Source: Myxococcales bacterium (GTDB taxonomy: Bacteria; Myxococcota_A; Polyangia; Haliangiales; Haliangiaceae). From it: a stretch of 64,000 nt of DNA. The DNA is taken from assembly GCA_016720595.1 (NCBI GenBank), contig JADKKI010000044.1:1-64000 (forward strand), in the 5' to 3' direction. Each line of letters opens with the position of its first letter. Position 1 is the first letter of the stretch. The notes under the pieces are model-generated. The model was not told the DNA's origin. It searched no databases and worked only from the letters and a program-made list of their open reading frames with translations. This document shows positions 24,605 to 37,599 of this stretch, one piece after another. The position numbers and the translations under genes were made by a program.

Positions 24605-24630
24605 TGGCGGAAGCGCATGGGAATCGAACC
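24605..24630 (-). repeat. Proximal att-like repeat within the tRNA-Sec 3' end
   Basis: The tRNA-side copy of the 26-bp direct repeat shared with 10,548-10,573. It covers the T loop, the 3' acceptor strand and CCA, the segment most used by tyrosine integrases at tRNA genes. Keeping it intact preserves the tRNA. Confidence 0.8.
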
Positions 24631-24704
24631 CACCATGCCGCTGCTCGCGCAGAGCATCATCGGTTTTGAAGACCGAGGCCGGCACCAGTCCGGCACGCGC
24701 TTCC
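24605..24704 (-). tRNA. selC: tRNA-Sec (anticodon UCA), selenocysteine tRNA
   Basis: On the minus strand these 100 bases fold as a bacterial tRNA-Sec. The acceptor is 8 bp (GGAAGCGC with GCGCTTCC), followed by G and an encoded CCA. The D arm is GCCGG/CCGGC. The anticodon stem is TCGGT/ACCGA around the loop CTTCAAA (anticodon TCA). A long variable arm (TGCTC/GAGCA) and a T arm with TTCGATT complete it. The 8-bp acceptor and long extra arm are specific to Sec. It reads UGA when charged with selenocysteine, which requires SelA, SelB and SelD; none of these genes is in this window. Its 3' 26 bases are duplicated at 10,548. Confidence 0.95.
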
Positions 24705-33850: not shown

Positions 33851-34714
33851 ATGAACAAGCTGTCCCTTACCGCACTCGTGTTGTCGCTGGCCGCGTGCCA
33901 GCCCGACACGAAGACCCTCGAGAAGAAGATCGACGACCAGGCCAAGGACATCCGCGAGATCAAGGCAATGATCGCGAAGGGTGGCGGCGGCGCTGGCGCG
34001 GCCCAGAAGGGCCAGCAGCAGGCGCGCGAGGAGGCGGCGCCGGATGCCGTGTTCGCGGTCGACATCAGCACGAACCTCAAGAAGGGGATGATCGAAGGCC
34101 CCTCGACTGCGCTCGTCACAATTGTCGAGGCCTGGGATTTTGCTTGACCGTACTGCCAGAGGGTCGGTTCGACCCTCCAGCAGCTCGTCAAGGACTACAA
34201 CGGGAAGGTGCGGGTCGTGTTCAAGAACCTGGTCGTTCACCCACAGAGCGTCGCGCGAGCTCACCTCGCGGGATGTGCTGCGGCCAACCAGGGCAAGTTT
34301 ACCGAGTACTACAACACGTTCTGGGAGAAGGCCTACAAGCCCTATCAGGAGTCGCGCGACGCATCGAAGCTGTCTGAAGAAGCGATCATGAGCTGGGCGC
34401 CGAGCATCGGGCTCGACGCTGCGAAGCTGAAGGCGGATATGGACGGCCAGGATTGTGCCGGCCTGATCTCGTCGGATGCGAACGAGCTCAGGAAGTACCG
34501 CGTCGGCTCGACGCCGAGCTTCTTCATCAACGGCCACTACGTCGCCGGCGCGATGGACATCAACGGGTTCAAGCAGCTCGTCGATCGCGAGCTGAAGATC
34601 GCCGAGGCCTCGGGGGTCTCGGCGGCCGACTACTACGACAAGGAAATCATCGGCAAGGGCGAGAAGGTGTTCCGCGCTGCGGGCACTCCGAAGCCTCAGG
34701 CCGAGAAGAACTAA
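33851..34714 (+). CDS. Selenocysteine-containing DsbA-like lipoprotein (UPYC active site)
   Basis: Reading through the TGA at 34,145-34,147 as Sec gives 287 residues. The lipobox is LAAC (Cys16). A coiled coil (TLEKKIDDQAKDIREIKAM) and a Gly/Gln linker follow, then a thioredoxin-fold DsbA domain (PF13462 type) with active site A-Sec99-P-Y-C and the cis-Pro region GSTPSFFINGHYV. The paralogue at 34,774 aligns without gaps and has Cys at position 99. Similarity runs equally strong before and after the TGA. A hairpin at SECIS distance follows the TGA. The product should be a periplasmic thiol-disulfide (selenol) oxidoreductase or reductase tethered to a membrane. AAGGA precedes the ATG. Standard gene finders would cut it in two. 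Confidence 0.87.
34145..34177 (+). promoter_or_regulatory. Candidate bacterial SECIS element at the Sec codon
   Basis: After UGA (34,145-34,147) the bases GAGGGTCG (34,159-34,166) pair perfectly with CGACCCTC (34,170-34,177), leaving a loop GTT. The loop begins 19 bases after the UGA with a G, which fits the bacterial SECIS rules (loop about 16-37 bases downstream, G near its start). The pairing uses codons, such as AGG, that are uncommon in this window. SelB would bind it. Confidence 0.7.
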
Positions 34715-34773: not shown

Positions 34774-35622
34774 GTGAACAAGCTCGTCTGTACCGCAATC
34801 GTTGCGGCGTTGGCCGCGTGCCAGGCCGACACCAAGAACATCGAGAAGAAGCTCGACGATCAGGCCAAGGACATCCGCGAGATCAAGGCGATGATCGCGA
34901 AGGGTGGCGGCGGTGCTGGCGCGGCCGCGAAGGGCCAGCAGCAGCAGCGCGAGGAGGCGGATCCGAACGCGGTGTTCGCCGTCGACATCAAGCCGAACAT
35001 CAAGAACGGCATGATCCACGGGCCCGAGGCCGCGCTCGTCACGATCATCGATGCGTGGGACGACGCGTGCCCGTACTGCGCCCGCGTGGTCCCCACGCTC
35101 GAGCAGCTCGTGAAGGACTACAACGGCAAGGTCCGCGTGATCTACAAGAACCTGGTCGTCCATCCGCAGCAGGTGCAGCGCGCGCACCTCGCGGGATGCG
35201 CCGCCGGGCTCCAGGGCAAGTTCCTCCAGTGGCAGACCGCCTGGTGGGACAAGGCGTACAAGCCGTACCAGGAGTCGCGTGACGGCTCGAAGCTGTCCGA
35301 GGAGGCCTTCATGTCGTGGGCGCCGACGATCGGTCTCGATGCGGCGAAGCTCAAGACCGACATGGACGGTCCCGAGTGCCAGGGGCTGATCAAGAACGAC
35401 GCCGACGAGCTGCGGAAGTTCCGCGTGGGCTCCACGCCGAGCTTCTTCATCAACGGCCACTACATGGCCGGTGCGATGGACATCAACGGGTTCAAGCAGA
35501 TCGTCGATCGCGAGCTGAAGATCGCCGAGGCCTCGGGGCTGTCGGCCGCCGAGTACTACGACAAGGCGGTCATGGGGAAGGGCGAGAAGACGTTCCGCGC
35601 TGCTGGCGCACCGAAGCAGTAA
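34774..35622 (+). CDS. DsbA-like lipoprotein, Cys paralogue (CPYC)
   Basis: A 282-residue protein from a GTG preceded by GGAAG. The plan is the same as the selenoprotein just upstream: lipobox LAAC, coiled coil NIEKKLDDQAKDIREIKAM, Gly/Gln linker, and thioredoxin fold with CPYC at 99-102, GSTPSFFINGHY near the cis-Pro, and a conserved second Cys pair (GCAAG, PECQG). It arose by tandem duplication. The Cys form presumably works when selenium is scarce, or acts as the exchange partner of the Sec form (inference). A weak hairpin with loop TCC lies where the SECIS would be. Confidence 0.9.
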   Translation: MNKLVCTAIVAALAACQADTKNIEKKLDDQAKDIREIKAMIAKGGGGAGAAAKGQQQQREEADPNAVFAVDIKPNIKNGMIHGPEAALVTIIDAWDDACPYCARVVPTLEQLVKDYNGKVRVIYKNLVVHPQQVQRAHLAGCAAGLQGKFLQWQTAWWDKAYKPYQESRDGSKLSEEAFMSWAPTIGLDAAKLKTDMDGPECQGLIKNDADELRKFRVGSTPSFFINGHYMAGAMDINGFKQIVDRELKIAEASGLSAAEYYDKAVMGKGEKTFRAAGAPKQ

Positions 35623-35689: not shown

Positions 35690-37027
35690 GTGGTGACCCC
35701 GCAGCCGATCCCCGAGGCCAACTGGGTCAACATCCAGTGGCTGACGCGCCTGCGCTGGGCGCAGATCGCGGGGCAGGCGGCCACCGTCGTCGTCGGGCAG
35801 TTCCTGCTCGATGGCGCGCTGCCGATCGCCGCGCTGCTCGGCGTGGTCGCGGTGGGCCTGGTCTCGAACCTCGGGCTCGAGCTGTACTTCTTCGGCGACC
35901 GGCGCCGCGAGACACCGTCGCGCTCGGTCTACGAGTGGCAGATCGCGTTCGTGATGATGCTCGACATCGCGATCCTCACCGGCCTCCTGTACCTCACCGG
36001 TGGGCCGCACAACCCGTTCGGGTTCCTCTACCTCGTGCAGATCGCGCTCGCGACGGTGCTGCTCCGGGCGCTGTGGACGTGGATGCTGGTCGCGCTGTCG
36101 TTCGTCGGGTTCGGCGTGCTGCTCGCCGCGCAGCGCGCCGTCTCGATCCCCGAGGACAGCCGCGCGATCGGGATGTGGGTGGCCCTCGGCGTGGCCTCGG
36201 CGTTCGTCGTGTACTTCCTGCGCCGCATCACCGGCGCGCTGGCCGAGCGCGAGCGCGAGCTGACCGAGGCGCGCGGGCTCGCAGCACGGCAGGAGCGCCT
36301 CGCGTCGCTCGCCACCATGGCCGCCGGTGCGGCACACGAGCTCTCCACGCCGCTCGGCACCGTGGCGCTCGCCGCCAAGGAGCTCGAGCGCGCGCTGACC
36401 AAGGCCGCAGATCCCGAGCTCGCCGCGGATGCGCGCTTGATCCGCGAGCAGGTGGGCCGGTGCCGCGCCATCCTCGAGCAGATGGCGCAGGGCGCGGGCA
36501 CGGTCGGCGAGACGGTGGCGCCGGTGACCGTCAGCGAGCTCCTCGAGGAATCGCAGGTCGGGATCCGGCCCACGCCCACGGTGCACGTCGACATGCCCAC
36601 CGACCTCGGCAAGTCGCCGCTGCGGATCCCGCCGCGCGCGGTCAGCCAGGCGCTGCGCTCGCTGATCACCAACGCCCAGGATGCGTCCCCGCCGAACTCC
36701 AGCGTCGTCGTCGTGGTGCGCCGAGATGGGGCGTCGCTGTCGATCTCGATCCGCGACCGCGGGCGAGGGATCCCCGCCGACGTCCAGGCCCGCATCGGTG
36801 AGCCGTTCTTCACGACCAAGGCGCCGGGGCGGGGCATGGGGCTCGGGCTGTTCCTGGCCCGGGCGGTGATCGAGGGTGTGGGTGGAACCCTGCAGATCGA
36901 CTCGATTGCGGGTGAGGGTACCGAGGTCCGGGCCCGGTTCCCGACGGACGTCTCACCGGCCCCATCACTTGGAACCGCCAGATCGGGCGAATCCCTGACC
37001 CCTCCAGTGGTATCCAAGCCTGCATGA
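35690..37027 (+). CDS. regB: RegB/PrrB-type redox sensor histidine kinase
   Basis: A 445-residue protein. Six membrane helices lie in residues 20-200. The quinone-site motif GGPHNPF at 104-110 is diagnostic of RegB/PrrB/ActS. The H-box AAHELSTPLGT carries the phosphorylated His216. Cys258, in GRCRAIL, lies at the place of the redox-active Cys of RegB. The ATPase part has NAQDASP, RDRGRGIP and GRGMGLGLFLARAV. It should sense quinone-pool and thiol redox state. The C-terminal 25 residues are a disordered extension. It overlaps the response-regulator gene by 4 bases. It lies 67 bases after the DsbA pair. The GTG start has only a weak binding site. Confidence 0.85.
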   Translation: MVTPQPIPEANWVNIQWLTRLRWAQIAGQAATVVVGQFLLDGALPIAALLGVVAVGLVSNLGLELYFFGDRRRETPSRSVYEWQIAFVMMLDIAILTGLLYLTGGPHNPFGFLYLVQIALATVLLRALWTWMLVALSFVGFGVLLAAQRAVSIPEDSRAIGMWVALGVASAFVVYFLRRITGALAERERELTEARGLAARQERLASLATMAAGAAHELSTPLGTVALAAKELERALTKAADPELAADARLIREQVGRCRAILEQMAQGAGTVGETVAPVTVSELLEESQVGIRPTPTVHVDMPTDLGKSPLRIPPRAVSQALRSLITNAQDASPPNSSVVVVVRRDGASLSISIRDRGRGIPADVQARIGEPFFTTKAPGRGMGLGLFLARAVIEGVGGTLQIDSIAGEGTEVRARFPTDVSPAPSLGTARSGESLTPPVVSKPA

Positions 37028-37599
37028 CTACCTCGGAGGCATCGTCCGGCGGGGACAAGACGTCGATCCTGATCGTCGATGACGACGAGGTGTATCGGAA
37101 CCGCCTGGCGCGGGCGTTCGTGGATCGCGGCTACGACGTCCGGATCGCCTCCGACTACGACAGCGCGGTGGCCTCGGCCACGCAGGACTCGCCCGAGCTT
37201 GCCGTCGTCGATCTCAAGATGCCCGGCAAGAGCGGCCTCGAGCTGATCAAGGCCCTGGTCGAGATCGATCCGTCGACGAAGTCGATCGTGCTCACCGGCT
37301 ACGGCAGCATCGCCACCGCGATCGATGCGGTCCGCCTCGGCGCCACGTACTACCTCTCCAAGCCCGCGGACGCCGACGACATCGTCCAGACCTTCGCCCG
37401 CGCCGAGGCGCCGCCGCTCGAGCCGCCGGCCAGCGAGTCCGGGGAGTACAAGGCGCCCTCGCTCGCCCGCGCCGAGTGGGAGCACATCAATCGGGTGCTC
37501 TCCGATGCGGGTGGCAATATCTCGGAGGCCGCGCGTCGCCTCGGCATCCACCGGCGCAGTCTCCAGCGCAAGCTGCAGAAGTACCCGCCGAGCAAGTAG
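37024..37599 (+). CDS. regA: RegA/PrrA-type response regulator
   Basis: A 191-residue protein. The receiver spans residues 14-125 with the acidic pair DDD at 19-21, phosphoacceptor Asp63 (VVDLKMPG), LTGYGS and the Lys of LSKPAD. A Pro-rich linker leads to a Fis-type helix-turn-helix (GGNISEAARRLGIHRRSLQRK), the strongly conserved DNA-binding signature of RegA/PrrA/ActR. It is co-translated with the kinase. In proteobacteria this pair controls respiration, photosynthesis and carbon or nitrogen genes by redox state. Its position beside Sec/Cys thiol enzymes suggests control of, or input from, them (inference). Confidence 0.88.
   Translation: MTTSEASSGGDKTSILIVDDDEVYRNRLARAFVDRGYDVRIASDYDSAVASATQDSPELAVVDLKMPGKSGLELIKALVEIDPSTKSIVLTGYGSIATAIDAVRLGATYYLSKPADADDIVQTFARAEAPPLEPPASESGEYKAPSLARAEWEHINRVLSDAGGNISEAARRLGIHRRSLQRKLQKYPPSK

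Follow-up and report, generated by a model that had tools for sequence, protein, structure and literature searches.

A predicted DsbA-like selenoprotein with a tandem cysteine paralogue in a Myxococcales genome

DsbA-like selenoproteins with a UxxC active site, in which U is selenocysteine (Sec), have been known since 2005, when they were described from the Sargasso Sea set (PMC1088965, in its accessible part). A 'DsbA-like protein form 1', with the domain PF01323 and a UxxC motif, is likewise listed in the accessible text of a more recent survey (PMC13188914). As far as these excerpts go, such proteins have a DsbA-type thioredoxin fold, a UxxC motif, homologues with cysteine (Cys) and a selenocysteine insertion sequence (SECIS) just 3' of the UGA codon. 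The gene described here is predicted to share all of these features. It lies at positions 33851-34714, on the plus strand, of a 64,000-nucleotide stretch (the window) from a Myxococcales bacterium (assembly GCA_016720595.1, contig JADKKI010000044.1, positions 1 to 64,000). Its subfamily differs from the known proteins in comprising predicted lipoproteins with an N-terminal coiled coil, in belonging to Myxococcota-type genomes and in often occurring in tandem with Cys copies. A literature search, with most subscription papers outside its coverage, turned up no DsbA-like selenoprotein from Myxococcota.

The best NCBIfam match of both the Sec and the Cys copies is NF041057, the Rcas_1661 family thioredoxin-like (seleno)lipoprotein, with an alignment that spans almost the full model. 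By its name, this family shares with them a lipoprotein nature and the presence of either Sec or Cys. The window protein is related to this family but reaches 72.3 bits where 190 are required, far short of the threshold. The TGA-containing genes of four Chloroflexi or Acidobacteria loci (L013, L031, L036 and L079; L numbers denote homologous loci, G numbers genomes and P numbers listed homologous proteins) match better, at 121-162 bits, scored on partial reads with one gene per locus and still under the cut-off. A sequence-only reading of the window had suggested that a lipoprotein might be a new setting for DsbA-like selenoproteins; since NCBIfam already has a (seleno)lipoprotein family, such a setting is not new. 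Structures of ScsC (Proteus, Caulobacter) and of BdbD/DsbA proteins show about 19-27% identity in the rows compared, and neither selenoproteins nor lipoproteins are mentioned in their titles. What appears to be new, judging from the sequences, is a coiled-coil subfamily of Myxococcota-type genomes with tandem Sec/Cys arrays and repeated Sec-to-Cys replacement.

Read through its single in-frame TGA, the frame 33851-34714 encodes a 287-residue DsbA-like (Thioredoxin_4/DSBA) predicted lipoprotein, as indicated by the sequence, Pfam, alignment with the paralogue and a model of the monomer. The TGA is codon 99 (34145-34147) and is followed by 188 codons up to a TAA. As originally proposed, it replaces the first Cys of a CPYC motif, for which the paralogue has TGC at residue 99. 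The resulting active site would be UPYC, with Sec99 as its first residue and Cys102 (TGC, 34154-34156) as its second. Similarity to the paralogue indeed continues without gaps across the TGA, at 78% identity over 281 residues. With C in place of U, the Sec copy scores 89.7 bits for PF13462 (Thioredoxin_4, cut-off 23.2) and 54.5 bits for PF01323 (DSBA, cut-off 25.6). Its N-terminus, MNKLSLTALVLSLAAC, is compatible by eye with a signal peptide and a lipobox Cys: the lipobox reported earlier is present, as LAAC, and by the lipobox rule lipidation is predicted at Cys16 (33896-33898). In the modelled monomer, the helix spanning residues 20-42 has a predicted local distance difference test score (pLDDT) of about 67-70. 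The domain scores, together with the position of the UGA at the first CxxC column, make it likely that this gene encodes a DsbA-like UxxC selenoprotein.

A protein search in which 7993 candidates were scored gave 706 homologues at E ≤ 0.001; the protein figures that follow come from the 120 of these that are listed. At the column of the TGA, 100 have Cys, and the other 20 are pieces of 159-176 residues that start after it, some of them named protein-disulfide isomerase. These pieces presumably represent genes cut at the TGA, and their Sec state is likewise presumed; among them is P0012, which shares 99% identity with what the window gene encodes after its TGA. The expectation that ordinary annotation would split such genes is apparently borne out by these entries, which begin just after the TGA. 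Homologous DNA was drawn from 80 loci in named genomes and from further loci in the order. Codon 99 is covered by 44 non-duplicate rows at E ≤ 1e-25; it is TGA in 15 (the window and 14 copies from 11 genomes), TGC or TGT in 28 and TCG in one, so that a check proposed at the outset, whether the column holds Cys elsewhere, comes out positively, as it does for the paralogues. Duplicates, five rows in which codon 99 is missing and rows weaker than E 1e-25, including the TGA rows of L013, L031 (twice), L036 and L079, were left out before the SECIS counts.

These data bear on the simplest alternative, that the TGA is a true stop arising in a pseudogene or from a sequencing error, and that what follows is either a relic or a second gene translated by reinitiation. 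The post-TGA pieces in databases speak for it. It is nevertheless extremely unlikely, as TGA occupies the same codon in 15 distinct genes, with no other stop inside these matches, and the protein is conserved on both sides of it. Moreover, the TGA copies share a conserved hairpin, described below, that is not kept in the Cys copies tested and that a sequencing error at the TGA could not have created.

Variants of the catalytic column occur at several other loci. TGA stands at the same column in L031 (9983-11161), L036, L079 and L013, from Chloroflexi/Anaerolineae and Acidobacteria; in L031 it is found in two neighbouring genes, one with a U-I-Y-C motif. A more distant homologue in genome G001 (L119, 1486-2289) has the TGA in U-G-Y-C rather than U-P-Y-C and represents a second Sec lineage of that genome. 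In genome G005, a copy with Ser (TCG) at the column, giving SPYC (L120, 823-1476), adjoins a CPYC copy.

Folding, homologue alignments and pattern searches identify a SECIS-like hairpin at 34159-34177 (plus strand). It reads GAGGGTCG-GTT-CGACCCTC and can be drawn either with 8 bp and a GUU loop or with 7 bp and a GGUUC loop. The sequence-only reading was right about the 8 bp and the G-first loop, while its spacing of 19 bases after the TGA applies to the start of the loop (18 for the 5-nt loop); the stem itself begins after 11 nt. According to the accessible text of PMC13188914, the bacterial SECIS model has an upper stem of 4-16 bp, an apical loop of 3-9 nt, a G in the first two loop positions, a distance of 16-37 nt from UGA to loop and a minimum free energy of at most -7.5 kcal/mol. 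Checked in this way, the region after the TGA agrees with every sequence rule of the model as given there: in either drawing the stem, the loop and the spacing fall within these ranges, the G is present (alignment columns 23-24 are an invariant GT in all 15 TGA copies), and the folding energy of the 58-nt stretch is -28.9 kcal/mol (z -4.34, equalled in 0 of 200 shuffles). When the post-TGA codons were resampled synonymously 5000 times, using the codon usage of 16 window genes, a rule-obeying stem of at least 8 bp arose in 29 cases, an energy as low in 31 and both in one. The stem includes an AGG Arg codon, a choice made for only 8 of the 442 Arg codons in the same 16 genes. The exact hairpin pattern occurs once in the window, a near-match on the minus strand being the same place.

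The case for the hairpin depends mainly on how its pairing compares with that in Cys copies and with slid partners. In the 15 TGA copies 99% of the helix is paired; it includes a single double change (L124 has C-G for U-A), one G-U and one U-G. For 14 of the 28 Cys rows, hand-picked as nearer kin (not strictly by E-value; the single TCG row was omitted), pairing at these columns is 53%, and in the slid-partner control it is 30-56%. Folded as an alignment, these Cys rows reach -0.7 kcal/mol, against -12.8 kcal/mol for the TGA copies. The longest unbroken stem in register measures 7-9 bp in 14 of the 15 TGA rows (5 bp in L119) and at most 6 bp in the 28 Cys rows. Likewise, the Arg codon in the stem is AGG in 14 of the 15 TGA copies (AAG in the other) and in none of the 14 Cys copies. 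A search of 35 genomes from the order gave 11 matches to the exact pattern, in nine genomes, all inside these DsbA-like genes; the reversed pattern has none. This hairpin is a candidate SECIS that would be bound by SelB.

The window also contains a tRNA-Sec gene with anticodon TCA, on the minus strand at 24605-24704 (ARAGORN; Rfam RF01852, 74.7 bits), which the sequence-only reading had not reported. It lies 9.1 kb upstream of the Sec gene and is the only tRNA that ARAGORN finds in the window. In five relatives reached through homologous loci, tRNA-Sec and selA are over their cut-offs in all five, and selB is over its cut-off in four, the fifth having a 169.6-bit fragment at a contig end. Across the 35 genomes of the order, tRNA-Sec is found in 29 and selA over its cut-off in 30; ten of the 11 genomes with Sec copies have both. 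In 14 control genomes, RF01852 exceeds its cut-off in five (three at a stricter E-value), selB in two and selA in one. One genome, G012, carries two equal-scoring tRNA-Sec genes 7 kb apart on contig C163 (3030-3125 and 10027-10122).

It is also conceivable that the UGA is decoded not as Sec but as Cys, Trp or a near-cognate residue, by readthrough or by a suppressor tRNA. This seems very unlikely: tRNA-Sec is the sole tRNA that ARAGORN finds in the window, the hairpin obeys the SECIS rules, the TGA stands at the catalytic Cys column, and both selA and selB are present in relatives. The original proposal of Sec at the first position of UPYC is upheld by the conserved TGA, the conserved SECIS-like hairpin, the tRNA-Sec gene of the window, the Cys column of the paralogues and the Sec machinery of relatives.

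Several observations pull in the other direction. Rfam, searched at a loose threshold, finds no known family at the hairpin. The stem of the TGA copy L119 contains an A-C mismatch, and three of the 14 TGA relatives (L119, L124 and L134) deviate from the exact hairpin pattern. The energy of the 48 nt after the codon ranges from -14.7 to -24.7 kcal/mol in the 15 TGA copies and from -7.2 to -26.4 kcal/mol in the 28 Cys copies; these ranges overlap, and fold energy was rejected as a means of telling the two apart. Covariation is thin, a control in which the 3' letters were shuffled reaching the observed value in 76 of 500 trials. With so little variation in the stem, this control fails to set the pairing apart, and covariation was accordingly dropped as stand-alone proof of the hairpin. 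Finally, in one of the 11 Sec-bearing genomes, G008, neither tRNA-Sec nor selA was found in the assembly, which may be incomplete, or the genome may have lost the machinery.

It is nonetheless very probable, from the sequence evidence as a whole, that the gene at 33851-34714 makes a predicted lipid-anchored DsbA-like thiol-disulfide enzyme with Sec at UGA 34145. In the mechanism proposed, the hairpin at 34159-34177 would direct the reading of this UGA as Sec through SelB, using the tRNA-Sec encoded at 24605-24704. The protein would then be exported and lipidated at Cys16. A predicted N-terminal coiled coil, with hydrophobic a/d positions L23, I27, I34, I37 and I41, may space the catalytic domain away from the inner membrane or oligomerise it outside that membrane. 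Sec99 would act as the attacking nucleophile and Cys102 would resolve the Se-S bond. By analogy with coiled-coil ScsC-type enzymes, the outcome may be the reduction or isomerisation of disulfides in envelope proteins, and the Cys copy would provide this activity too under selenium shortage.

This Cys copy, the tandem paralogue, is encoded immediately downstream (34774-35622, plus strand) with a GTG start and a CPYC motif. Its Cys99 codon, TGC (35068-35070), occupies the column of the TGA, and both copies have a lipobox-like stretch ending in Cys16. The GTG is preceded by a good ribosome-binding site, GAAGGAAG. The longest ATG/GTG/TTG frame of the Cys copy begins 321 bases earlier, at 34453 inside the Sec gene, so that gene callers may assign it a wrong start. 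The window and six relatives (L108, L109, L125/L136, L134, L135 and L137) carry Sec and Cys copies side by side. Contig C1320 of G008 holds two adjacent Sec copies and one Cys copy.

The relationship between the two forms was examined in trees, the first of which drew on all 20 post-TGA pieces and 20 of the 100 Cys proteins among the 120 listed. The main tree, built from the residues after the hairpin-coded stretch, has 71 rows and 172 columns, 13 of 84 rows having been omitted as distant or long. The window Cys copy falls in a 10-row Cys clade (100/99) within a 35-row set (100/100). The rest of that set consists of Sec and presumed Sec rows together with two further Cys rows and one whose state is unknown. 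For a 44-row clade (97/98) that holds the window Cys copy, all 1000 bootstrap trees make a Sec ancestor the cheaper state. Counting the post-TGA pieces as Sec requires five Sec-to-Cys replacements (957 of 1000 trees); restricting Sec to rows whose TGA was seen lowers this to four (685 of 1000 trees, with five in 289). In the approximately unbiased (AU) test, a single clade of all 34 Sec and post-TGA rows (L119 left out) is rejected (p-AU 2.6e-5), as is a single group of 14 Cys rows. Both the 44-row clade and the 14 Cys rows of this second test were named after the tree had been seen.

Gene conversion between tandem copies was considered as a source of this pattern and rejected, as the same pairings return in a 48-row tree of the residues that precede codon 99. 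This N-terminal tree repeats the Sec/Cys pair of L134 (99/80) and the group of P0014, L105 and L106 (98/83), which argues against conversion of the C-terminal half alone. The two window copies fall together in a 16-row set (100/100) whose internal order is not resolved; P0007 is placed loosely and P0008 on a long branch.

The opposite history, in which Cys is the older state, kept by the neighbour, and Sec forms evolved from it repeatedly, gains something from the outer groups of the trees, which are Cys. It also agrees with the accessible part of PMC1794560, where Cys-to-Sec is described as the usual direction. That paper counts 15 Sec-to-Cys events across four families, FdhA and SelD accounting for two thirds. 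The short leftover hairpins of Cys copies count on the side of this history. The window Cys copy has a 6-bp hairpin with a TCC loop at 35084-35098, in the register of the SECIS stem, and the leftover stems of three presumably Sec-derived Cys copies (window, L114 and L134; 6, 6 and 5 bp) are the longest of the 28 Cys rows, the others having at most 4 bp. Such stems are no longer than chance allows, being reached by synonymous resampling in 443, 448 and 446 of 2000 cases (about 22%). Because resampling does as well, these stems are at best suggestive of SECIS remnants and do not prove them. An older Cys state is still unlikely in view of the bootstrap result for the 44-row clade and because each repeated gain would have had to produce almost the same hairpin, at an identical distance and again with the rare AGG codon. 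The window Cys copy is thus likely to have arisen by duplication followed by Sec-to-Cys replacement, and we infer four or five such replacements in the subfamily from its sequences.

The genes around the pair suggest a possible regulatory connection. Upstream on the plus strand lie genes for a BlaI/MecI/CopY-like repressor (PF03965, 32069-32542, from profile searches) and a BlaR1-type M56 membrane peptidase (PF05569, 32539-33801, from Pfam). Downstream on the same strand are genes for a RegB/PrrB-like histidine kinase (35690-37027) and a RegA/PrrA-like response regulator (37024-37599). RegB/RegA (PrrB/PrrA, ActS/ActR) are the best NCBIfam matches of this pair, both under their equivalog cut-offs: the kinase scores 257 bits for NF033792 (cut-off 350) and the regulator 173.7 bits for NF033791 (cut-off 250). 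The only Cys of the kinase, Cys258, follows the H-box in the stretch GRCRAIL. This stretch, we assume, recalls the redox Cys of RegB.

The DsbA-like protein might therefore be an accessory of the adjacent redox pair that reports the thiol state of the envelope, comparable to the Sco/PrrC gene near prrBA. Besides the single Cys258, the gene order speaks for such a role: M56 peptidase, DsbA-like protein, kinase and regulator are kept in this order at L001, and the last three at L002. However, L001 and L002 are close relatives of the window, syntenic across the whole region, which makes the linkage uninformative, and tblastn finds no M56, kinase or regulator gene at L003, L004 (only 5.6 kb) or L005, which are more distant Sec loci. 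Paralogous Sec/Cys loci at L003, L005, L149 and L151 lie near a DUF3108 gene in all four cases, with genes for a 2-oxoacid:ferredoxin oxidoreductase or a thiamine-diphosphate enzyme also nearby. Since the Pfam-named neighbours differ in this way, a functional link based on gene context was rejected, and no general partner emerges. The M56/RegBA setting pointed out in the sequence-only reading is thus real in the window and is shared with two close relatives alone; it is a lead rather than evidence, and an accessory role is rather improbable.

A broader reading, which we put forward tentatively and hold to be somewhat less probable than not, is that a tethered Sec-DsbA protein is the founding half of a selenium-tuned pair in this Myxococcota order. 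Tandem duplication would repeatedly, four to five times, have yielded Cys copies, combining a fast Sec enzyme with a selenium-independent backup, and near the window pair the thiol state may be fed to a RegBA-type regulator. With 20 of the 120 listed homologues starting after the TGA, much of the subfamily is seemingly filed as short thioredoxin-like pieces. Its tandem arrays provide natural same-genome pairs of Sec and Cys forms for asking what selenium adds to an envelope thiol enzyme. The family also offers an apparent four or five instances of Sec-to-Cys replacement, a change that the accessible text of PMC13188914, a 2026 review, describes as rare and largely confined to FdhA and SelD. 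If this reading is correct, Sec-to-Cys conversion, thought to be rare in bacteria, would be a recurrent process that can be observed beside its Sec parent.
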